Part shown: piece after piece, positions 579-20,299 of the stretch | Position numbering within the stretch: the first letter of the stretch is position 1 | Layout: every line of letters starts with the position of its first letter | NCBI GenBank assembly: GCA_040756435.1 | Contig: JBFLZD010000010.1 | Coordinates: 1 to 64,000, forward strand | Length of the DNA: 64,000 nucleotides | Direction: 5' to 3' | DNA from: Spirochaetota bacterium | Lineage (GTDB): Bacteria; Spirochaetota; UBA4802; UB4802 | Notes under the pieces: model-generated | What the model was told of the DNA's origin: nothing | Databases searched by the model: none | What the model saw: only the letters and a program-made list of their open reading frames with translations | Made by a program: the position numbers and the translations under genes

Positions 579-789
579 TATTTCCTCCCAATGTATATTT
601 TTATTGTGGCAAAGTATACTACCGATAACTATCAGTGCAAGCATTTTATTAGAGAATATAAGGTTTTTTCAACACATTTCAGTATTCGATAATAGCAAAA
701 TTACAAACCATATTGGACTTTATAATATTAAACAATACAATAATTAATTATATGCCAATGAATAATATTAACTTGACATATTCAGTAAC

Positions 790-1398
790 ATGTTGAAAAA
801 AACATTTATGAAAAATATTAAATCATTCCAGCAGTTAAAAGAATCTGAGAAAGAAAATAGGAAAAAGATTATTGTTGATGCTGCAGAGCGAGTATTTGCA
901 ACAAAGCCTTTCAATCAAGTAACAATGCGAGATATAGCTAAAGAAGCAGGTATTACAGCAGGTGCCATTTATCGCTATTTTCCGGACCAGCAGTCATTGT
1001 TTGTGGAAGCTTTCTTGCGAGGTGCAGAAAAAATAATCAATGACCTTGAACATGTTATTTCTCGCAATAAAAATCCTTTAAAAGATACTATCGCCACATT
1101 CTTGAAATTTTTGATGAAGCATGATCAGTATTTCAAGATGATGACCCATTTTATGCTGGATGCACATTTAAACCAGGATCTTGTTGAAAAGCTTAATGAA
1201 GCAGAACGCAGATTGCTGGATCAGTTTACAAAGTTGTTTGAACGCAGGCAACATGCCAGGCTCCTTGCTCATAGTTTATTTGCTGCAATGAATGGCGTTG
1301 TCATTACATTTCACAATTATCCCGGCAGAAGTCAGAAAGACATACACCAGCATATGAACAGGTTGGGTGATATGCTGTATCAGCTATTTTCTAAGTGA
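790..1398 (+). CDS. TetR/AcrR family transcriptional regulator
   Basis: A 202-residue regulator. Residues about 22-70 form the TetR N-terminal helix-turn-helix (IIVDAAERVFATKPFNQVTMRDIAKEAGITAGAIYRYFPDQQSLF), with the typical G-[AI]-IYRYF signature of the recognition helix. The rest is the variable ligand-binding and dimerisation domain. It converges on the acyl-CoA dehydrogenase gene at 1384-2985, and the two 3' ends overlap by 15 bases. TetR proteins beside acyl-CoA dehydrogenases often sense acyl-CoAs or fatty acids, so control of that neighbour is a reasonable inference. The start is uncertain: ATG at 790 and ATG at 808 both lack a clear Shine-Dalgarno. One ACTATCGC octamer lies inside the gene at 1087-1094. 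Confidence 0.9.
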   Translation: MLKKTFMKNIKSFQQLKESEKENRKKIIVDAAERVFATKPFNQVTMRDIAKEAGITAGAIYRYFPDQQSLFVEAFLRGAEKIINDLEHVISRNKNPLKDTIATFLKFLMKHDQYFKMMTHFMLDAHLNQDLVEKLNEAERRLLDQFTKLFERRQHARLLAHSLFAAMNGVVITFHNYPGRSQKDIHQHMNRLGDMLYQLFSK

Positions 1399-5482: not shown

Positions 5483-6412
5483 CTAGTTACTATCGCCCCA
5501 TTTAATCTTTGCAATGCATGCATCCATGTTAGGAACCAGAACATCGTTTTGTATGCGGCCACGCAATGGAGTTGCCCTGTATTCTTTTATAAGGACAGGA
5601 TTGCCTGAGGCACTTGGGGGATACTGTGCATATTCAACCACAAACAATGGTGTATTGTATTTGTACGCACTTTTTGCAGCTTCAAAACTTCCGGCATTGT
5701 TTCCTGTTTCAATGATGATGAGCGCATCAACCATTGCTGCAATTAGGCTGTTACGTTTATATGAATTGTGCAGGGCATATTCTTCCTGAGGATTGAATGG
5801 CGATATAAAAAGCCACTGGGACATAGTAACGATATCTTTCAATACATCAGGTATTGAAAGTACATTTATTCCCATAGGTAGGACTGCAATGGTGTTACCG
5901 CCCGCTTCTACAGCGCCACGATGTGCCATGGTTTGCGGGCCTTTTGCCAAGCCACTTACCACAGTGACGGAATGCTGAGCGGCAATAGCTGCGGCATGAT
6001 ACGCTATGTGATACCCACGCTCACTGGCATTGTGGTCGGATAATATTGCAACTTTTCTTGTTTTAATGATATCCATATTGGCCAAGTAATACAACACAGG
6101 GGGTGGATAATCAACATTCTTCAGAATTTTTTCTGGATAGCGTGTGTCAAAAAAAAGGACTGGCTCAATGTTCCTATCAATTAAATCTTCATATTCACTT
6201 TCAATTTTTTCGATAGTTACTGCGATCTTTGCAATAAGCTGACTCAACTCTAATGATAAGCCTGTTTCATGAGCTATTGCCTTTGGTTCTAACTCAAAAA
6301 TATCATACAGTGATAGATTGAGATGAGAAAGTGCTGTATGAATTGTCTTCAGAGAAGCAATCCCTGCACCTTCAATGCGTGATAGGGCAATCCATAATTT
6401 TGTATCGTTCAT
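5483..6412 (-). CDS. dprA: DNA-processing protein DprA/Smf
   Basis: A 309-residue DprA-type protein, which binds incoming single-stranded DNA during natural transformation and loads RecA. The Rossmann-like core is visible: TVVSGLAKGPQTMAHRGAVEAGGNTIAVLPMGI (residues about 150-183), RNSLIAAMVDALIIIETGNNAGSFEAAKSA and the late GNPVLIKEYRATPL. Compared with the usual VVSGLARGID-AHRGAL and FPxRNRIIAGLS motifs it is diverged (SYKRNSLIAAMVD). An N-terminal helix-hairpin-helix-like region (LSRIEGAGIASLKTIHTAL) is present, as is usual. ATG at 6412 is chosen because the DprA fold begins there; the frame extends to 6460. Its last codons carry an ACTATCGC octamer (5489-5496), which matters if that octamer is an uptake signal. 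Confidence 0.85.
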   Translation of the reverse strand: MNDTKLWIALSRIEGAGIASLKTIHTALSHLNLSLYDIFELEPKAIAHETGLSLELSQLIAKIAVTIEKIESEYEDLIDRNIEPVLFFDTRYPEKILKNVDYPPPVLYYLANMDIIKTRKVAILSDHNASERGYHIAYHAAAIAAQHSVTVVSGLAKGPQTMAHRGAVEAGGNTIAVLPMGINVLSIPDVLKDIVTMSQWLFISPFNPQEEYALHNSYKRNSLIAAMVDALIIIETGNNAGSFEAAKSAYKYNTPLFVVEYAQYPPSASGNPVLIKEYRATPLRGRIQNDVLVPNMDACIAKIKWGDSN

Positions 6413-6669
6413 AATGTAGTATAGTATTATACAATATTCAGAGCGATTGTTATTGTACAAGGTATTTAATCAACTAAATTTTATGTGAAGATCCTATGGA
6501 GCAAAAAATATTATATCTGGTTATTGTTTGGACAGGTTGTACGCAACATTGTACTTTTGGGAGATGTTTACTAAATTTTTTATACATTTTTGTTTTATAA
6601 AAATTCTTGAAATTTTTATGTAGCAAAATAATAAATTTGTAATTTAGTGGAAACAGATGGAGGAATAAT

Positions 6670-9600
6670 TTGAAAAGAGTTCTTTTCCTATTGATTATAT
6701 TAAGCGTTTTTAATTCTTTTGTCTTGGCAAAAGATAAACCTGAAATGTTTGTTCAATTAGGACACTCTCACTGGGTGACTTCAGTAGCGTTTAGCCCTGA
6801 TGGAAGATATGTAATTTCAGGTAGTGAAGACAATACCATTAAACTGTGGGATGCAAAAACTGGGATTGAAATAAGAACATTTACTGGGCACTCAGATTAT
6901 GTAACTTCAGTAGTATTTAGTCCTGATGGAAGATATGTTCTATCTGGAAGCCGTGATAATACAGCTAAACTATGGGAAGTTGAAACGGGAAAGTGTATTA
7001 ATACTTTTTCGGGTCACTGGTTTTGGGTTGAAGCAGTAGCATATAGCCCTGATTGTAAATATATCCTTACAGCAAGTAGAGACAATACACTCAAGCTATT
7101 TGAAGTGAACACAGGAAAAGAAATTTATACATTAAAAGGGAATTCAGAGGCCATTGTATCAGTTGTATTCAGTCATGATGGAAAATATATTGCGGGGGGT
7201 GGTGAAAACAAAGCTATAACAGTATGGGATGTTCAGTCTGGTAAAAAAGTTGCTATTCTAAAAGGTCACATAGGATTGGTAACGTCAGTGGCATTCAGTC
7301 CTGATGATAAATATATTGTTTCAGGAAGTGATGATAAAACAATAAAACTATGGGACATGCAAACATACAAGAATATATATACATTCGGAGGTCATCAAGG
7401 GGGTGTGACTTCGGTAGCATTTAGCCCTGATGGAAAATACATACTTTCAGGAAGTGAAGATAAAACAATAAAGCTCTGGGAGATAGCAACCGGAAATGAA
7501 ATCTATACTATGGTAGGTCACCTTTACTGGGTAACGTCAGTAGCGTTTAGTCCTGATGGCAAGTATGCCATTTCGGGGAGCAAAGATAATACAATTAAAT
7601 TATGGGATATTGAAATAAGAAATGAAATTTTAACGTTTAAAGGTTACGCAAGTGTAATTACATCACTGGCGTATGAACCTGGGAAAAATTATTTAGCTGT
7701 TGGGGGCGAAGATAAATCTATTAAATTATGGGATTTAAAAACAGGGAAAAAATTTAAAACGTTAAAAGGTCATTCAGATTATATTACATCAGTAGCCTTT
7801 AGTCCAGATGGTAAATATGTCATTACGGGAAGTGAAGATAAAACATTGAAAATATGGGAGATAGTAACTGGCAAAGAAATATTCACATTAAGCGGACATC
7901 AAGGAGTGATAACCTCTGTAGCATTTAGTCCTGATGGTAAGTATGCAGTATCAGGAAGCGAGGATAAAACTATAAAACTTTGGGATGTATTAGCAGGAAA
8001 AGAAATAAATACATTTACCGGGCATAAAGATTATGTTTCTTCAGTAGCATTTAGTCCTGATGGTAAATATATAGTATCAGGTAGCTGGGATAAAACTTTA
8101 ATTTTATGGGAAAGGGATTCTTCAAACATAGTTCATATTTTTTCCGGCCATGAGTTTTGGGTAGAATCAGTAGCATTCAGTCCCGATGGAAGATACATAA
8201 TTTCTGGTGGCAAAGACAATACCATTAAGTTATGGGATAGCATTAGTGGAAAATTAATAGTAACATTTAAAGGCCACACAGGAGATGTTACCAGTGTATC
8301 ATTTAGTAAGGATGGTAAATTATTGCTTTCTGGAAGCAAGGATACAACGTTACGTCTCTGGGATATAGATACTGGCAAAGAAATCCAAACGTTTAAGGGG
8401 CACCTGAGTTCAATACAATCTGTTTCTTTTGATGCAACAGGCAGATATGTTTTTTCGGGCAGTTGGGATGGGACTGTACGACAGTGGGATGTTAGTTCTG
8501 GAAAAGAGATAGCTCAATTCATAAGCTTTAATGATGATGAATGGATTATTATAACACCAGAAGGGTATTACACTGCTTCAATCACAGGCGATAAATATTT
8601 AGACGTTCGTATTGGGAATACTGTATATAGTATAGAAAATTATAGAGAATCCTTTTACAGGCCTGATCTGGTTAAACTGGCAATTATAGGCAATTCCCTA
8701 AAAGAACATAAATCAATTGCTGAAGTAAAAAAACCACCTGTAGTAGAAATTGTTAATACATCCAAAAAGGTTGATGTTGATGAGATCCAGATCACTTTAA
8801 AACTTATCGATATGGGAGGTGGTATTGGTGATATTAGAATTTATCTCAATGATACATCCGTGGTTCTGGATAATGGAAGAGGAATTCAAATCACGGAACA
8901 AATAAATGATAAAGAAATGTATAGAAAATATTCTATTAAAATTCTCACTGGTCAAAACATTATCAGAGCAATAGCATTTGATAAAGATGGTACTGTTGCA
9001 AGTAATCCTGCTATTTATAAAGTAATTTCAACATATAAACCCAATGTTCGGCCATCACTATTTGCAATAGTTATTGGCATCAATGAATACAAGAATCCAA
9101 AATTAGAATTAAAATATGCTGTAGCTGATGCAAAACTTTTTGCTCAAGCATTAAAAGATAGTTCCCAGCCACTATTTGATAATGTTTCTGTAAAACTTTT
9201 AACTAAAAAAGAAGAAACGACTAAAGAAAATATTATTTCAGCTCTTAAAGAATTGAAGAATTTAAATCCAGAAGATGTGTTTGTATTTTATGTAGCCAGT
9301 CATGGCATAGTAGATGATGGAGAATATTTTTTGGTAACATCCAATGTTGGTTCATTAAGTACTGCTAAAGTAAAAGAGGATGCAATAAGCCAGGTTGCAT
9401 TAAAAGAGTTGATTGCTAACGTGCCTTCAACAAAAAAATTGATAGTTATAGATACCTGTAATGCAGCCAAATTAAGTGAAGCGTTACAGGTAGCCTTTCT
9501 TACACGTGGGATGAGTGAAGAAACAGCTATGAAGATACTTTCAAGAGCAGTTGGGTCAACAATATTATCAGCTTCTACCTCAAAGCAGGAGGCGTTGGAA

Positions 9601-9813
9601 GGATATCAGGGACATGGTCTTTTTACCTATGTGCTTGTGGAAGGTTTAAAAGGAAAAGCTGATTATGATAACGATGGTTTTATCAAAACTCTAGAACTAG
9701 CAAACTATATTGATGATCAGGTTCCAATATTGGCTGAGAAAATTTTCAAAAGATCCCAATACCCAACTGCTACACCACATGGGCAGGCATTCCCTATTGG
9801 AAAAGTAAAATAA
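6670..9813 (+). CDS. exported WD40-repeat protein with C-terminal caspase-like (C14) protease domain
   Basis: A 1047-residue protein starting at TTG with GGAGGAAT just upstream. Residues 1-20 form a signal peptide (KRVLFLLIILSVFNSFVLA). Fourteen WD40 repeats of about 42 residues follow to about residue 618, which fits two seven-bladed propellers. Repeats 4 and 8 are the most diverged. A linker with a beta segment (EWIIITPEGYYTASITGD) leads to a caspase-like domain from about residue 794 (RPSLFAIVIGINEYKNPKLE). The catalytic His is His878 in YVASHG and the catalytic Cys is Cys930 in VIDTCNAAK; both are present. Bacterial members are metacaspase-like proteases that usually cut after Arg/Lys. 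The signal peptide places it in the periplasm or outside. The next gene encodes a CsgG/DUF4384 protein, a domain often linked to caspase-like proteases. Confidence 0.93.
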   Translation: MKRVLFLLIILSVFNSFVLAKDKPEMFVQLGHSHWVTSVAFSPDGRYVISGSEDNTIKLWDAKTGIEIRTFTGHSDYVTSVVFSPDGRYVLSGSRDNTAKLWEVETGKCINTFSGHWFWVEAVAYSPDCKYILTASRDNTLKLFEVNTGKEIYTLKGNSEAIVSVVFSHDGKYIAGGGENKAITVWDVQSGKKVAILKGHIGLVTSVAFSPDDKYIVSGSDDKTIKLWDMQTYKNIYTFGGHQGGVTSVAFSPDGKYILSGSEDKTIKLWEIATGNEIYTMVGHLYWVTSVAFSPDGKYAISGSKDNTIKLWDIEIRNEILTFKGYASVITSLAYEPGKNYLAVGGEDKSIKLWDLKTGKKFKTLKGHSDYITSVAFSPDGKYVITGSEDKTLKIWEIVTGKEIFTLSGHQGVITSVAFSPDGKYAVSGSEDKTIKLWDVLAGKEINTFTGHKDYVSSVAFSPDGKYIVSGSWDKTLILWERDSSNIVHIFSGHEFWVESVAFSPDGRYIISGGKDNTIKLWDSISGKLIVTFKGHTGDVTSVSFSKDGKLLLSGSKDTTLRLWDIDTGKEIQTFKGHLSSIQSVSFDATGRYVFSGSWDGTVRQWDVSSGKEIAQFISFNDDEWIIITPEGYYTASITGDKYLDVRIGNTVYSIENYRESFYRPDLVKLAIIGNSLKEHKSIAEVKKPPVVEIVNTSKKVDVDEIQITLKLIDMGGGIGDIRIYLNDTSVVLDNGRGIQITEQINDKEMYRKYSIKILTGQNIIRAIAFDKDGTVASNPAIYKVISTYKPNVRPSLFAIVIGINEYKNPKLELKYAVADAKLFAQALKDSSQPLFDNVSVKLLTKKEETTKENIISALKELKNLNPEDVFVFYVASHGIVDDGEYFLVTSNVGSLSTAKVKEDAISQVALKELIANVPSTKKLIVIDTCNAAKLSEALQVAFLTRGMSEETAMKILSRAVGSTILSASTSKQEALEGYQGHGLFTYVLVEGLKGKADYDNDGFIKTLELANYIDDQVPILAEKIFKRSQYPTATPHGQAFPIGKVK

Positions 9814-9896
9814 ATTAAAATTGTTTTTTTATTGCAATTTAAACTTGAATTTGCTTTTTTTATTAAAGGTAATTGTTAATGGAGGTTACAGTAATT

Positions 9897-10835
9897 ATGA
9901 AAAAAATAGTATTGTATGGAGCAATTATCATATCATCACTTGTAACATTGGATGCTTATTCACAGGAATATATTGTTACAGGTATTATGCCGTTTACAGC
10001 CACAAACAAAAGTCACTCTGAAGTGGTTGTATCACAATTAACTAAAGTTTTACAGCAGTATCCGTTTATTCAATTAGTCGAGCGTTCACAGATGCAAAGT
10101 ATTGTGAATGAAATCCAGCTTTCTATGACAGGGCTGGTACATGAACAAACTGCTCTTCAGCAAGGAAAGATTTTAGGAATAAAGGTTATGATTTTTGGAG
10201 CTATCGATAAAAATAATATAAGCGCCCGTGCTGTGCATACTGAAACAGGCAGGATAATTGCTGCGTCAAGCAATGCTTTTGGGATGGTAGAACAGATTGG
10301 CAGCCAATTGGCTCTAGGTATTGAAAGTTTTTTGGCACGGGAAAATTTAAAGAAAATGCGTAACGATAGCCCCGATATTCACGTTGATTTTTGGGTTGAA
10401 ACAAAAGATGGTAAAAAACTAAGTCCTGGCCAGGGTTTAAAAATTGGAAATTCGGTTAAGTTTAAATTCAAAGCTAACAAATCAGGCTATGTAACAATTG
10501 TGGATATACAACCTACCGGGGAAGTAGTTATTCTTTTCCCTAACCAGTTTAAGCAGGATAATAAGATTTCTGCAAACACTGTATATTCAATTCCTGCAGA
10601 TGATGATGGATTTGAGTTAACGGTAACAGAACCTGCTGGAGAGGATACAATAACATTGTTCTTTACGGAGAAAAAGGTTGAATGGCTGGATATGAAGAAA
10701 CTGCAGGGTGAAGGTTTTAAAACTGTCAACACTGAGGAACGGTTAGCAGTAACCCGTGGTTTTGCAGTAACGGCTACTGGGCTCAACAACAAACAATGGG
10801 AAAGTGTTATATTGAATATAAATGTTACCAAATAA
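9897..10835 (+). CDS. exported CsgG-like / DUF4384 protein
   Basis: A 312-residue exported protein. The ATG at 9897 has GGAGG eleven bases upstream and begins a signal peptide (KKIVLYGAIIISSLVTLDAYS). The N-terminal half resembles CsgG/FlgO-type envelope domains: EYIVTGIMPFTATNKS, VLQQYPFIQLVERSQMQSIVNE, and GKILGIKVMIFGAI. The C-terminal half (about 165-280) matches DUF4384: VDFWVETKDGKKLSPGQGLKIG, a GYVTIVDIQPTGEVVILFPNQ strand pair and FTEKKVEW. DUF4384 is often fused to or next to caspase-like proteases. Here it is the next gene, 83 bases downstream, so a shared transcript and a partnership at the envelope are likely. A MITE-B element begins directly after the stop codon. Confidence 0.82.
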   Translation: MKKIVLYGAIIISSLVTLDAYSQEYIVTGIMPFTATNKSHSEVVVSQLTKVLQQYPFIQLVERSQMQSIVNEIQLSMTGLVHEQTALQQGKILGIKVMIFGAIDKNNISARAVHTETGRIIAASSNAFGMVEQIGSQLALGIESFLARENLKKMRNDSPDIHVDFWVETKDGKKLSPGQGLKIGNSVKFKFKANKSGYVTIVDIQPTGEVVILFPNQFKQDNKISANTVYSIPADDDGFELTVTEPAGEDTITLFFTEKKVEWLDMKKLQGEGFKTVNTEERLAVTRGFAVTATGLNNKQWESVILNINVTK

Positions 10836-10947
10836 GGGAGCTTCTAAAACTAGTTTTTTGGATGTTCCCTTGTGTGCACAATATAAGGAAGATAAAACTG
10901 CTTTTTAGTATATGAATAATTTAGGAAGAAGTTAGTTTTAGAAGCGC
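10836..10947. repeat. MITE-B copy 1 (inverted orientation), directly after a stop codon
   Basis: An imperfect inverted repeat of about 112 bases with ends GGGAGCTTCTAAAAC and GTTTTAGAAGC. The interior words GGATGTTCCCTTGTG and GATAAAACTGCTTTTTA match, in reverse, those of the copies at 17859-17973 and 26783-26899. It starts at the base after the TAA of the DUF4384 gene and could fold into a long hairpin, so it may act as a transcription terminator or mRNA 3' stabiliser. Confidence 0.75.
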
Positions 10948-10970
10948 ACGTAATTTTTCTGGAGGCACAA

Positions 10971-11237
10971 ATGAAAAGAATATTGATATTTGTTGTTATG
11001 TGTATGGTTTGCTGTATGGTAACTGGCATAGTTATTGCAGGTGATACCAGTGTGTATGATGATGCAAAGGCAATTGAGCGCGATTCAAAAAATGCCCAAA
11101 AAGAAGCAGAAAAGGGCAACTACGAAGGTTCAAGAGAAGAGGCGGGAAAAGGGTTTGATACACCAACAAGCCCATCAAATAATAACAGTGAGTATGATAT
11201 TCCGATGCCGGGAGATCCGCAGATTGATAATGAATAG
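10971..11237 (+). CDS. small exported protein, unknown function
   Basis: An 88-residue protein with GGAGGCACAA before its ATG. The first 23 residues form a hydrophobic signal peptide with two Cys (RILIFVVMCMVCCMVTGIVIA) that ends in an A-G cleavage site. The mature part is only about 65 residues, highly charged and probably helical then disordered (DDAKAIERDSKNAQKEAEKG, then PTSPSNNNSEYDIPMPGDP). No known domain. The stop codon overlaps the start of the next gene by eight bases, a sign of coupled translation. It lies downstream of the caspase/DUF4384 pair and could be part of that module, with MITE-B between. Confidence 0.7.
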   Translation: MKRILIFVVMCMVCCMVTGIVIAGDTSVYDDAKAIERDSKNAQKEAEKGNYEGSREEAGKGFDTPTSPSNNNSEYDIPMPGDPQIDNE

Positions 11238-11808
11238 AAATATTTTTATATTGGCAGGGTTGTCTTTACTGGTTATTATAGTGTTATATGCTGACGATTT
11301 CCTTACTATAAAATCCGGCTGCATACAGGCAACAATAAATGCTATTACCTGGGAGTTAGAAAATTATCAAAATAAACATACGGTAGCGGAAGAAAAAGGT
11401 GATATGGTAAGTGCCCAAAAAATGGCAAAAAGAATTTTACAGTGTCAAGAGGAACTCAAACGTATAAAAGCCATAACTCCTGATAAATATATATTACTGG
11501 ATACAGAAAGCCAAAATGGGAACCAATTGCTTTTTGAAAAGGATAAAATTTTTGGAATGCTCATGCCACCGCTAGTGAAGCATGTAACAATTACTTTAAA
11601 AGAAAAGTGTGAAGAAAAGAAACTCCTTTATATTGATGGCATCACGCGCTCTGGGCCCTTTTATCATGTGGCAGGTATTGTTGATAATTATGAGAATCTT
11701 AAAGTGGGCAAAAGGTATAGGTTGACTATTTATCTGGTGTATAAAAAAGAATATTTTGGATTTATACCCAATTATTATGTGTATATATCACACTATGAAG
11801 CGATGTAA
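11230..11808 (+). CDS. hypothetical membrane-anchored or exported protein
   Basis: A 192-residue protein. I start at the ATG at 11230, inside the end of the previous gene, because it opens a signal or anchor sequence (RNIFILAGLSLLVIIVLYADD). Upstream codons in the same frame only shadow the previous gene. Residues about 30-75 are predicted to be helical and coiled-coil prone (WELENYQNKHTVAEEKGDMVSAQKMAKRILQCQEELKRI). The last 100 residues look like a beta-rich domain (VKHVTITLKEKCEEKKLLYIDGITRS). I know no family for it. It ends five bases before the next gene, so it is probably co-transcribed with both neighbours. Confidence 0.68.
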   Translation: MNRNIFILAGLSLLVIIVLYADDFLTIKSGCIQATINAITWELENYQNKHTVAEEKGDMVSAQKMAKRILQCQEELKRIKAITPDKYILLDTESQNGNQLLFEKDKIFGMLMPPLVKHVTITLKEKCEEKKLLYIDGITRSGPFYHVAGIVDNYENLKVGKRYRLTIYLVYKKEYFGFIPNYYVYISHYEAM

Positions 11809-11813
11809 TAATT

Positions 11814-12278
11814 ATGTATACGTTAGTTACTGTTGATTGGCTTGGTACTAAATTTGAAGTGTATAATGATAGTCAAATTATTGGTACAATAGTAAATAAA
11901 GTTCCCTGGCTTAAATATAGAAGCATTATTACCGTCAATGATACAAAATACATTGCATATCGTGAAAGTTTAATGGGAAAATGGTTATTTTCATCCAATG
12001 AGAATAATGCAGTAATAGCAACTGCAATAAAACCAAGTTTTTTCACGGATAAGTTTATAATACAATATAATTCACAGGAACTATCTCTTTCATCGCCTCA
12101 ATTAAGCATTAAGAATTATTTCATCATTGAAAGAAACAATATAGAGATAGGAATGATTAAAAGGCCAGGGCTTGTAACAAACAAATGGGTGTGTACCATA
12201 AGTGACGATATTCCGGCAGAGATAATACACTTTATGTTTTATCTATCACGAATTGTTATTAGCAGTAGATCTTCATAA
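11814..12278 (+). CDS. LURP-one/YxjI-like (tubby/scramblase fold) protein, tentative
   Basis: A 154-residue protein without signal peptide. It consists of short beta strands separated by turns, with the spacing of the LOR/YxjI family: a strand with FEVYNDSQIIGTIVNK, then NNAVIATAIKPSFFTDKFIIQY, then YFIIERNNIEIGMIKRPGLVTNKW, and a C-terminal hydrophobic helix (IIHFMFYLSRIVI). That family shares the tubby/phospholipid-scramblase fold, with a beta barrel around a central helix. The match is from remembered motif spacing only. It follows the two exported proteins closely and ends the plus-strand run that starts with the caspase-like gene. A structure prediction would settle the fold. Confidence 0.5.
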   Translation: MYTLVTVDWLGTKFEVYNDSQIIGTIVNKVPWLKYRSIITVNDTKYIAYRESLMGKWLFSSNENNAVIATAIKPSFFTDKFIIQYNSQELSLSSPQLSIKNYFIIERNNIEIGMIKRPGLVTNKWVCTISDDIPAEIIHFMFYLSRIVISSRSS

Positions 12279-12402
12279 AAGGTTAATGATAGCAAGCCAG
12301 ATAATTTTACAGTTACTATCGCATAGAATATGGTATTGACATTATACATTGATAGTATACCATTTGTTTATAGCTATTACATAATACTGAACAGGGGTTT
12401 CT

Positions 12403-13188
12403 ATGACACAAAAAATAACCATTGAAAAGAAAGGACACATATTGCTGATTGGGCTCAACCGCCCTGAAAAGCGCAATGCGTTTGATGTCGATATGTACTG
12501 GGACCTGGCAAAAGCATATGGCACGCTGGATGCTGATGATGATCTTCGTTGTGGCGTGCTCTTTGCGCATGGTGAACATTTTACTGGTGGACTTGACCTG
12601 GTACAGTGGGTTGAGCCGTTTTCAAAGGGTGAGTATCCCACACTGCCGGCTGACAGCAAGGATCCTTTTGGCATTGATGAGGATAATAGAGTATCAAAGC
12701 CAATTGTGGCGGCAGTGCAGGGTATATGCTTCACAGTGGGATGGGAGCTTATGCTTGCAACGGATGTGCGTGTTGCTGCTACTAACTTGCGTTTAGCGCA
12801 AATTGAGGTGAAGCGGGGTATTTATCCTGTTGGTGGTGCAACCGTAAGGCTTTTTGAGGAGATAGGCTGGGGCAATGCCATGCGGTATTTACTCACTGGT
12901 GATGAGATGAATGCACAGGAAGCCTACCGCCTTGGGCTGGTACAGGAGCTGGTTGAGCCAGGTAAACAGTTAGATCGTGCAATTGAAATTGCTGAAGTTA
13001 TAGCCAAACAGGCACCACTAGGGGTCAGAGCCATCTTGCGTTCAGCACGGCTTTCGCGTGTGGAAGGGGCTAAAGCAGCACTGGCGCGGTTACTTCCCGA
13101 CCTTTTGCCCATCATGAAAAGTGAGGATGCTCAGGAAGGGGTCAGAGCCTTCATTGAGCGACGTGAAGCTAATTTCAAAGGCAGATGA
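12403..13188 (+). CDS. enoyl-CoA hydratase/isomerase (crotonase) family protein
   Basis: A 261-residue crotonase-fold enzyme acting on acyl-CoA thioesters. The N-terminal NRPEKRNAFDVDMYWDL segment and the oxyanion-hole loops (HGEHFTGGLDL and AAVQGICFTVGWELMLATD) are present. Both general acid/base glutamates of hydratases have counterparts: Glu in GWELML and Glu in AQIEVKRGIYPVGG. ATG is preceded by AGGGGT. It probably supports fatty-acid oxidation together with the two acyl-CoA dehydrogenases in the window. Two exact copies of the word GGGGTCAGAGC (13021 and 13138) lie in frame in the C-terminal part, both encoding Gly-Val-Arg-Ala; this may reflect insertion of a mobile word or convergent codon choice. 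Confidence 0.9.
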   Translation: MTQKITIEKKGHILLIGLNRPEKRNAFDVDMYWDLAKAYGTLDADDDLRCGVLFAHGEHFTGGLDLVQWVEPFSKGEYPTLPADSKDPFGIDEDNRVSKPIVAAVQGICFTVGWELMLATDVRVAATNLRLAQIEVKRGIYPVGGATVRLFEEIGWGNAMRYLLTGDEMNAQEAYRLGLVQELVEPGKQLDRAIEIAEVIAKQAPLGVRAILRSARLSRVEGAKAALARLLPDLLPIMKSEDAQEGVRAFIERREANFKGR

Positions 13189-18045: not shown

Positions 18046-18846
18046 ATGGTAGAAAAAATTAAACATACTGTCATTAATTTTATAAGCGATATCGGTACAA
18101 ATACACTGAATATTATTGCAATGATGGGATATTGTATGCTGCTCTTTTTAGAAGTTGTATATTATTCTAAAGCAGCGTTTGAAAAGCGCCGTGAAATTTT
18201 AAAACAGATGTATTATGCAGGGGTTAAAACGTTTATTGTAGTATCAATAGTTGCACTTTTTACAGGGATGATACTTGCTCTTCAAACAGGGCTTGAATTA
18301 AAGCCGTATCAGCAGCAGGCTCTGGTTGGTAATATTATTATAGCAACGCTAACACGGGAGATGGCACCATTTGTCACAGCAATTATTTTAATTGCTGCAG
18401 TTGGTTCAACCATGGCTGCTGAAATTGGTACCATGACAGTTTCAGAAGAGATAGATGCACTTGAGATGATGGCAATAAGTCCTGTTAAGTTTTTAGTCAT
18501 GCCACGAGTTATAGCTCTTGCCATTATGTTGCCTATTGCTACAATTTATACTAATCTGCTGGGCAGTATTGGGGGTGGTATTGTTGCATACTTTCAGCTG
18601 GATGTAAGCTTTGATGTATATTATACACATGTCCTTGATTCATTGCATTTCAAGGCTACCTATGTTGGGCTTTTGAAAGCTTTTGTTTTTGGTATGATGG
18701 TTTCTACCATCAGCTGTGCTAATGGTTTGCGAGCAACAAACGGAGCGTTAGGTGTGGGGAAAGCAACACGCAATTCTGTTGTGTCATCATTTTTGATGGT
18801 ACTCATTGTGGGATACTATATTACAGCTCTTTTTTATGGAAAATAA
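18046..18846 (+). CDS. mlaE: MlaE-type lipid transport permease
   Basis: A 266-residue inner-membrane permease of the MlaE/YrbE family. It moves phospholipids (Mla system) or other lipids between the membranes. Five hydrophobic segments are visible, and the family signature is strong: ALFTGMILALQTGLELKP, TREMAPFVTAIILIAAVGSTMAAEIGTM, EIDALEMMAISPVKFLVMPRVIALAIMLP. The closing VGKATRNSVVSSFLMVLIVGYYITALF is typical. It is the first gene of an mlaE-mlaF-mlaD operon with gaps of 29 and 23 bases. MlaB and MlaC are not encoded here, which is common in diverged Mla-like systems. Confidence 0.92.
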   Translation: MVEKIKHTVINFISDIGTNTLNIIAMMGYCMLLFLEVVYYSKAAFEKRREILKQMYYAGVKTFIVVSIVALFTGMILALQTGLELKPYQQQALVGNIIIATLTREMAPFVTAIILIAAVGSTMAAEIGTMTVSEEIDALEMMAISPVKFLVMPRVIALAIMLPIATIYTNLLGSIGGGIVAYFQLDVSFDVYYTHVLDSLHFKATYVGLLKAFVFGMMVSTISCANGLRATNGALGVGKATRNSVVSSFLMVLIVGYYITALFYGK

Positions 18847-18875
18847 AATTCTATAGTCATCAAAATGTGTAAATT

Positions 18876-19622
18876 ATGATTGAATTCAGAAATGTTACCA
18901 AAACACTCAGTGGAATAAAGGTTCTCAATAACTTGAGTTTCAAAATTGAAAAAGGTGAAACGTTTGTTATCATTGGGCGTTCAGGTACAGGTAAAACAGT
19001 AACATTAAAGCATATTGCAGGATTGCTTGAACCCGATAACGGACAGATTTTAGTTGATGGTGAACAAATGAACAGTATCAGCAAAAGCCAGAGAGATAGA
19101 TTACGGGAAAAAATTGGATTTGTATTCCAATCAGGGGCATTAATTAACTGGATGACCGTTGAGGAAAATATAGCCCTTCCCCTGTTAGAGCATAAATTGT
19201 ATCCACCAGATGAAATAAAACGAATTGTAGAAGAAAAGATGGATTTATTACAACTCACATCAGCCCGGGATAAGATGCCAGCTGAAATAAGTGGTGGAAT
19301 GAAAAAACGTGCAAGTTTGGCACGGGTTTTGGTACGTAATCCCCAAATTATTTTATATGATGAGCCAACGTCAGGGCTTGATCCAGTGATGTCCAGTTTA
19401 ATTAATACTATTATAAATCAATTAAAAAAAGATTATACAATAACACAGGTTGTTGTAACTCACGATATGGATAGTGCTTATGCGGTTGGTGATAGGATTG
19501 CAATGCTGTATGATGGAAAAATTATACAATGTGATGAACCTGATGGAATACGGAATACTGATAACCCAATTGTACGGCAGTTTATTTCAGGTTCATTAGA
19601 AGGACCAATTGATGTGTTATAA
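18876..19622 (+). CDS. mlaF: MlaF-type ABC transporter ATPase
   Basis: A 248-residue ATPase that powers the lipid transporter with MlaE. Walker A is IGRSGTGKTVTLKHIAGL (about residues 34-51), the Q-loop is GFVFQSGALINWMTVEEN, the signature is ISGGMKKRASLARVL, and Walker B is IILYDEPTSGLDP, followed by the H-loop VVVTHDMDSAY. The FQSGAL form of the Q-loop and SGGM signature are characteristic of MlaF/Ttg2A ATPases. Order and close spacing with mlaE and mlaD support a single transcript. Confidence 0.93.
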   Translation: MIEFRNVTKTLSGIKVLNNLSFKIEKGETFVIIGRSGTGKTVTLKHIAGLLEPDNGQILVDGEQMNSISKSQRDRLREKIGFVFQSGALINWMTVEENIALPLLEHKLYPPDEIKRIVEEKMDLLQLTSARDKMPAEISGGMKKRASLARVLVRNPQIILYDEPTSGLDPVMSSLINTIINQLKKDYTITQVVVTHDMDSAYAVGDRIAMLYDGKIIQCDEPDGIRNTDNPIVRQFISGSLEGPIDVL

Positions 19623-19645
19623 TTATTATACTATTGGAGGGTGAT

Positions 19646-20299
19646 ATGAAACAGGAGATAGCGGTAGGGATAATAGTTATTATAGCTCTTACGGTGTTGG
19701 GCTATTTTACTATAATAATGAGTGGAGAAATCTTTGAAACACATACATATTACCCAATGACAGTTGTGTTTAAGGATGTTGAAGGTTTGTCGGCAGATGA
19801 TAAAGTGCGGGTTAATGGGGTGCTGTCGGGATATGTTGATACAGTAGAATTAATTGATAATAATGTTGTTGTAAAATTACGGTTATATAATCATTTTACG
19901 CTGTATGAAAATTATGAAATTATGGTACGAAATGAAACAGCTCTGGCTGGGAAGTATGTAAGTATTAATCCAGGAACACCTATGGACGAAAATGGCAAAC
20001 AGTATGCAGTTATTACCACCAGGGACAATCTTGTGGGAACTGCAGTTACCGACCCTTTTACACTGCTTTCGCGTCTCATTGCTGATAATAGGGGAAATGT
20101 TAATGCCACTGTTAAGAATTTGCGTGATATAACTGATAAAATTAATTCGGGAAAAGGCACACTGGGCAAGATAATTAACGAAGATACTGTTCATGGACAG
20201 GCAACTGATTTGATCAAGCAATTGCAGGATACTATTGAAGATACCCGTGAACAGGCACCAATAACAAGCTTCCTGCGTGCTGCGTTAACAGCGTTTTAA
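19646..20299 (+). CDS. mlaD: MlaD-type MCE-domain substrate-binding protein
   Basis: A 217-residue periplasmic lipid-binding protein anchored by an N-terminal helix (EIAVGIIVIIALTVLGYFTIIM). The ATG at 19646 has GGAGGGTGAT directly before it. The MCE domain spans about residues 35-120: YYPMTVVFKDVEGLSADDKVRVNGVLSGYVDTVEL, then YENYEIMVRNETALAGKYVSINPGTP. The C-terminal helical part (GNVNATVKNLRDITDKINSGKGTLGKIIN) is the usual hexamer-forming region. It ends the mla operon; a 167-base gap precedes carB. Confidence 0.9.
   Translation: MKQEIAVGIIVIIALTVLGYFTIIMSGEIFETHTYYPMTVVFKDVEGLSADDKVRVNGVLSGYVDTVELIDNNVVVKLRLYNHFTLYENYEIMVRNETALAGKYVSINPGTPMDENGKQYAVITTRDNLVGTAVTDPFTLLSRLIADNRGNVNATVKNLRDITDKINSGKGTLGKIINEDTVHGQATDLIKQLQDTIEDTREQAPITSFLRAALTAF

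Follow-up and report, generated by a model that had tools for sequence, protein, structure and literature searches.

A predicted exported WD40-caspase and a DUF4384 partner protein are encoded side by side at a recombining locus of Spirochaetota

Introduction

The caspase homologues of prokaryotes are mostly described as proteases of cell death or defence that act in the cytoplasm. In a survey from 2012, a Membrane category nevertheless held 98 of 671 such homologues, and most of these 98 begin with a helix that is a possible signal peptide (PMC3501461). WD40 repeats, which are also present in the caspase described here, are the commonest accessory domain of prokaryotic caspase homologues (PMC3501461, PMC8283722). 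Orthocaspases cut after basic residues and contain two Asp residues in the pocket (PMC6426788), and 23 cyanobacterial orthocaspases carry a DUF4384 domain (PMC8283722).

Here we analyse a stretch of 64,000 nucleotides (the window) from a Spirochaetota MAG, labelled G000, with a genome of 3.6 Mb in 126 contigs. A sequence-only reading of this DNA had proposed that an exported caspase-like protease and the four genes that follow it might form one module. We examined the domains and predicted folds of the five proteins, together with the distribution and history of their genes among related genomes.

Results

Organization of the locus

The five genes are co-directional, separated by short gaps, and lie between two conserved flanking genes (Table 1); 83 bp separate the end of the caspase gene from the CsgG-like/DUF4384 gene. 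A promoter and terminator scan of the locus gave no signal above chance. An imperfect inverted repeat (positions 10830-10955; 30-nt arms, 77% complementary, with 66 nt between them) is located between the CsgG/DUF4384 and the 88-aa genes, and may represent the boundary of two transcription units. About 6 kb downstream, at 18046-20299 and outside the variable interval, there are genes for an MlaE-type permease and an ABC ATPase, followed by a 221-aa ORF; the permease and ATPase genes are kept in a second genome of the genus (G001).

Table 1. Features of the caspase locus and its flanks, in window positions or, for protein regions, in residues
Feature	Position	Strand	Evidence or remarks
dprA-like gene, conserved, bordering the variable interval on the left	5483..6460	-	
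WD40-caspase, predicted exported, 1047 aa	6670..9813	+	Pfam, alignment, hydropathy
Linker in the caspase protein	residues about 619-795		
Peptidase C14 domain	after the linker to the C-terminus		H878, C930; putative acidic pocket D820, D928
CsgG/LpoB-like and DUF4384 protein, 312 aa	9897..10835	+	Pfam, structure model, Foldseek, conservation
Small protein, 88 aa, hydrophobic N-terminus	10971..11237	+	
193-aa protein, hydrophobic N-terminus	11230..11808	+	8-bp overlap with the 88-aa gene
Protein of predicted LURP-one/tubby-like fold, 154 aa, without signal peptide	11814..12278	+	AlphaFold2, Foldseek
Enoyl-CoA hydratase family gene, conserved, bordering the variable interval on the right	12403..13188	+	

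The caspase protein

The caspase ORF has a TTG start, with a GGAGG ribosome-binding site just upstream. Residues 1-20 of its product (MKRVLFLLIILSVFNSFVLA/KD) resemble a signal peptide, with a charged start, a hydrophobic core and a plausible cleavage site, as judged by eye and from hydropathy only. Pfam recognized 14 WD40 stretches between residues 31 and 618 (E 2.5e-187), starting at residues 31, 73 ... 577 with a period of exactly 42 aa, from which we infer two seven-bladed propellers. The mean pairwise DNA identity among the units is 60%, and 13 of the 14 have their best match in the same-numbered unit of the orthologue from a congeneric genome (G003). A recent expansion of the repeats was rejected, because the units are old and in register with those of G003.

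The peptidase C14 family (PF00656) matched the complete protein with 68.8 bits, against a curated cut-off of 21.4, and its C-terminal part alone with 67.3 bits. The His-Cys dyad is intact, is kept in G003 and is aligned in other homologues, whereas after the catalytic Cys the window caspase contains CNAA in place of the C-x-SG of most homologues, so that its proteolytic activity is not certain. Asp residues at 820 and 928 are aligned in seven of seven homologues. These residues, the presumed S1 pocket as in metacaspases, would fit the acidic pocket behind the Arg/Lys preference of orthocaspases. Published orthocaspase models also underlie this assignment (PMC6426788). Between G000 and G003, dN/dS is 0.10 over the full-length caspase and 0.06 in the C14 domain, showing purifying selection that is most stringent in the catalytic domain. 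Searching the PDB by sequence with only the caspase region gave no match.

The genome contains a second exported WD40-caspase, on contig 16 (G000:C16:40803-41591; L002, L045), with relatives in G001, G003 and G004 and with no DUF4384 neighbour.

Turnover of the dprA-hydratase interval within the genus

We compared the interval between the dprA-like and hydratase genes in five genomes of the genus, G000 to G004 (window positions 5483-13188 and loci L032, L033, L034 and L044). The interval of G000 holds the caspase, CsgG/DUF4384, 88-aa, 193-aa and LURP-one-fold genes, and G003 has the same set except that its 193-aa gene is deleted to its ends. Only the last 68 codons of the caspase gene remain in G004, followed by the CsgG/DUF4384 gene, both small genes (that for the 193-aa protein being intact), a zinc-ribbon gene and the LURP-one-fold gene. 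In G001 the position of the caspase gene is taken by a WG-repeat gene, and the CsgG/DUF4384 and zinc-ribbon genes are present as well; G002 has a zinc-ribbon gene, a partial LURP-one-fold gene and unrelated genes. The product of the WG-repeat gene of G001 (L033:1467-2786), which precedes the CsgG/DUF4384 gene, contains nine WG repeats and looks exported.

In a quartet test on site patterns, with 1000 bootstraps, dprA, the hydratase gene and a DUF456 gene grouped G000 with G001 (998-1000 of 1000 bootstraps, and all 1000 for the two flanks), the CsgG/DUF4384 gene grouped G000 with G004 (1000 of 1000), and FlaA was undecided between groupings. The history of the CsgG/DUF4384 gene thus differs from those of both immediate flanks, indicating that the locus has been exchanged. 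Together with the differing gene sets, these discordant quartets indicate that the interval is a recombining site of gene turnover. The patchiness and loss of the caspase locus argue for an accessory rather than an essential role, for example in stress response, competition or defence.

Recurrence of the caspase-DUF4384 pair

In six genomes besides G000, a WD40-caspase gene and a CsgG-like/DUF4384 gene are direct neighbours with the same orientation. One of these genomes, G003, is congeneric with the window; G006, G014 and G018 come from other families of its order, and G055 and G054 each add one more family of the phylum. Counting the window, six Spirochaetota families are represented. Twelve genomes of the phylum contain a close orthologue of the partner, defined by a score above 300 bits. 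It is next to an intact WD40-caspase gene in five of them, window included, next to a caspase remnant in one, and next to a WD40 ORF truncated by the contig end in two (G021, divergent, and G209). The remaining four (G001, G011, G013 and G022) have the partner without an adjacent caspase, which, with its retention in G004 after caspase loss, suggests that the partner also has an independent life.

Exported caspases of other architectures are encoded no more than a few kb from DUF4384 genes in G121, G174, G177, G268, G344, G351, G358 and G371. Altogether, an exported caspase is encoded near DUF4384 at 15 or more of the roughly 110 loci listed, in at least 10 families, as against a rough chance expectation from gene numbers of less than one, related loci being counted separately. 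The locus of G351 (L065:240-15617), from another spirochaete family, comprises six exported caspase genes, a DUF4384 gene and lipoprotein-like genes.

Between the window and G014 or G018, the partner is about 50% identical and the caspase domain only about 24%, and in the caspase tree the paired protein of G018 grouped weakly with unpaired paralogues, not following the partner. The higher conservation of the partner and the discordant caspase tree suggest that one caspase may replace another next to a more constant partner; by these sequence comparisons, the two do not look strictly co-inherited.

It could be argued that the caspase performs house-keeping or stress-related proteolysis within the cell envelope and that the two genes are coincidental co-residents of a turnover hotspot. 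We regard this as rather unlikely: unrelated genes, such as those for the WG-repeat and zinc-ribbon proteins, do occupy the hotspot in sister species, and the partner often occurs without a caspase, but the pair recurs outside the hotspot in other families, and C14 and DUF4384 domains exist as fusions, both in a Rhizobium protein with Trypsin, C14 and DUF4384 in one chain and in cyanobacteria (PMC8283722).

A scan of named genomes with the partner protein returned seven loci, from Spirochaetota MAGs and one "uncultured bacterium" MAG; phyla beyond Spirochaetota were covered through plasmid records. WD40-caspases with export-like N-termini occur in Alphaproteobacteria as well as in several families of spirochaetes. 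Those of three Azospirillum species and Pseudoroseomonas are encoded inside type VI secretion loci (L077, L079, L080 and L081), on plasmids, among genes for TssL, TssM, TagF and TssI or for TssI, TagH and TssK. They adjoin a YMGG glycine-zipper gene, and in Azospirillum a second, divergent caspase gene lies beside the WD40-caspase of the type VI locus.

An antiphage or interbacterial-competition effector, by which an exported caspase would kill the cell or attack competitors or invaders from the periplasm, would agree with a patchy, exchanged and repeatedly lost locus, with a generic PADLOC "caspase" match and with the type VI context of these alphaproteobacterial relatives. Yet PADLOC recognized no known defence system, matching only a generic caspase model and repeats, the window locus has no secretion genes next to it, and neither an immunity gene nor a sensor ATPase gene is evident there, making such a role quite improbable.

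The three downstream genes

No Pfam family matched the 88-aa protein, and none matched the 193-aa protein above cut-off. The 88-aa gene was seen only in the genus of the window (G000, G003 and G004), and neither small gene was found beside the caspase-partner pair in other families.

The 154-aa protein had been read from its sequence as LURP-one/YxjI-like, and structure prediction bears this out. Its AlphaFold2 model (pLDDT 87.1, from a four-sequence alignment) is a 12-stranded barrel with a C-terminal helix, as in the LURP-one/YxjI fold. The top Foldseek match was the Arabidopsis LURP-one protein 1zxu (probability 1.00, TM 0.65), and the human tubby-like domain 2fim also matched (probability 0.99). 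Conversely, the LURP-one Pfam family gave no match at E ≤ 1, and a PDB sequence search with the LURP-like profile returned nothing meaningful. We looked for a signal peptide and found none, suggesting that this protein is probably cytoplasmic, across the inner membrane from the caspase.

These results bear on the proposal that all five genes form an envelope-stress or cell-death module, in which the protease would act together with a sensor of CsgG type, both small exported proteins and a LURP-one protein that handles lipids. The common direction and short gaps, the retention in G003 of four of the five genes plus the ends of the fifth, and the predicted LURP-one fold of the last protein all agree with it. 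However, genes 3 to 5 were not found outside the genus (LURP-like protein P0005 matched in 4 of 59 genomes, all congeneric) and come and go independently: the caspase gene is deleted in G004 and the 193-aa gene in G003, G001 retains only the CsgG-like and zinc-ribbon genes, and G002 only the zinc-ribbon and partial LURP-one-fold genes. The LURP-like protein, moreover, lacks a signal peptide. The five-gene module is therefore not supported, failing the conservation test that the sequence-only reading had itself set, and we consider it very unlikely; we propose instead that genes 3 to 5 are genus-specific passengers or loosely related cargo.

The CsgG-like/DUF4384 partner

Pfam matched both domains previously read in the partner: DUF4384 (PF14326) with 87.5 bits, against a cut-off of 27, and CsgG with 27.3 bits, against 20.8, the latter over profile positions 32-98 of 210 only. 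In the structure model (pLDDT 75), residues 26-153 are predicted to adopt an alpha/beta fold like those of LpoB, PelC, the TolB N-domain and the periplasmic domain of CsgG. This domain of 128 residues is modelled without hairpin insertions or membrane hairpins, and no lipobox Cys occurs within the first 30 residues of the protein, suggesting that the partner is probably a soluble periplasmic protein rather than a pore. A PDB sequence search with the partner profile yielded nothing meaningful. That it forms an outer-membrane pore through which the caspase or the small proteins would reach the surface, as the CsgG match and the presence of CsgG 4uv2 among the Foldseek matches might suggest, is hardly credible, and was rejected on the length of the domain, the missing lipobox and the TolB, PelC and LpoB fold matches, which are at least as good as that to CsgG.

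Discussion

We propose, with moderate confidence, that the core of this locus is a two-gene, exchanged accessory unit consisting of a regulated periplasmic protease and its DUF4384 partner. The two WD40 propellers would recognize or hold some target, periplasmic or on the cell surface, and, once a trigger released or activated it, the caspase domain would cut substrates after Arg or Lys. The DUF4384 protein, presumably through physical interaction, would act as a partner of the protease, be it as anchor, regulator or substrate, and the unit would be exchanged between strains within the dprA-enoyl-CoA hydratase interval. As for the biological outcome, a role in cell death or envelope stress would be a guess.

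A broader idea is that exported WD40-caspases and their DUF4384 partner constitute widespread, undescribed periplasmic executioner or competition modules, horizontally exchanged among diderm bacteria and coupled to type VI secretion in some lineages; we give it little credence. That the partner recurs, in at least 10 families of spirochaetes and as a C14 fusion in other bacteria, provides a testable handle on caspases outside the cytoplasm, and the sister species G004, which has lost the caspase and kept the partner, offers a natural experiment.

The sequence-only reading correctly recognized a protein with a signal-peptide-like N-terminus, 14 WD40 repeats and an intact dyad, features that chance does not explain, but overstated its contrast with the usual cytoplasmic metacaspases, given the 98 Membrane-category homologues. 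The caspase itself is of a known kind, because WD40-caspases and caspase homologues with a likely signal peptide were already present in the 2012 survey (PMC3501461). In the literature searched, with subscription journals mostly outside its scope, we did not find the caspase-CsgG pair or a separate partner gene.

The 154-aa protein has in common with the LURP-one/tubby-like proteins AT5G01750 (1zxu) and TULP1 (2fim) the predicted 12 strands and C-terminal helix, although it is only 9-11% identical to them and has no Pfam match. The partner shares the predicted fold of its residues 26-153 with the LpoB/PelC/TolB N-domain/CsgG superfamily, differing in the absence of a lipobox and of membrane hairpins and in the appended DUF4384 domain. 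Among described caspases, the "caspase family" proteins of Azospirillum and Pseudoroseomonas show, like that of the window, an export-like N-terminus followed by WD40 repeats and a C14 domain, and are related in sequence (E 2e-28 for that of Pseudoroseomonas). They differ in their location inside type VI loci beside a glycine-zipper gene, with no DUF4384 neighbour seen.

The WD40 orthocaspases (PMC3501461, PMC8283722) share with the window protein the His-Cys dyad of C14 and the Asp residues of the putative acidic pocket, whereas the window protein has N-terminal WD40 repeats and a C-terminal caspase domain, lacks NACHT or AAA domains, appears to be exported and is accompanied by a separate DUF4384 gene. 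The DUF4384-containing caspases of Alphaproteobacteria (PMC6426788) and cyanobacteria (PMC8283722) couple the same two domain families. The alphaproteobacterial trypsin-C14-DUF4384 clade, however, has a QC pseudo-dyad (PMC6426788) where the window caspase has HC and, unlike in those DUF4384-containing caspases, the domains are here distributed over two genes, with a CsgG/LpoB-type domain preceding DUF4384 and WD40 propellers preceding the caspase.
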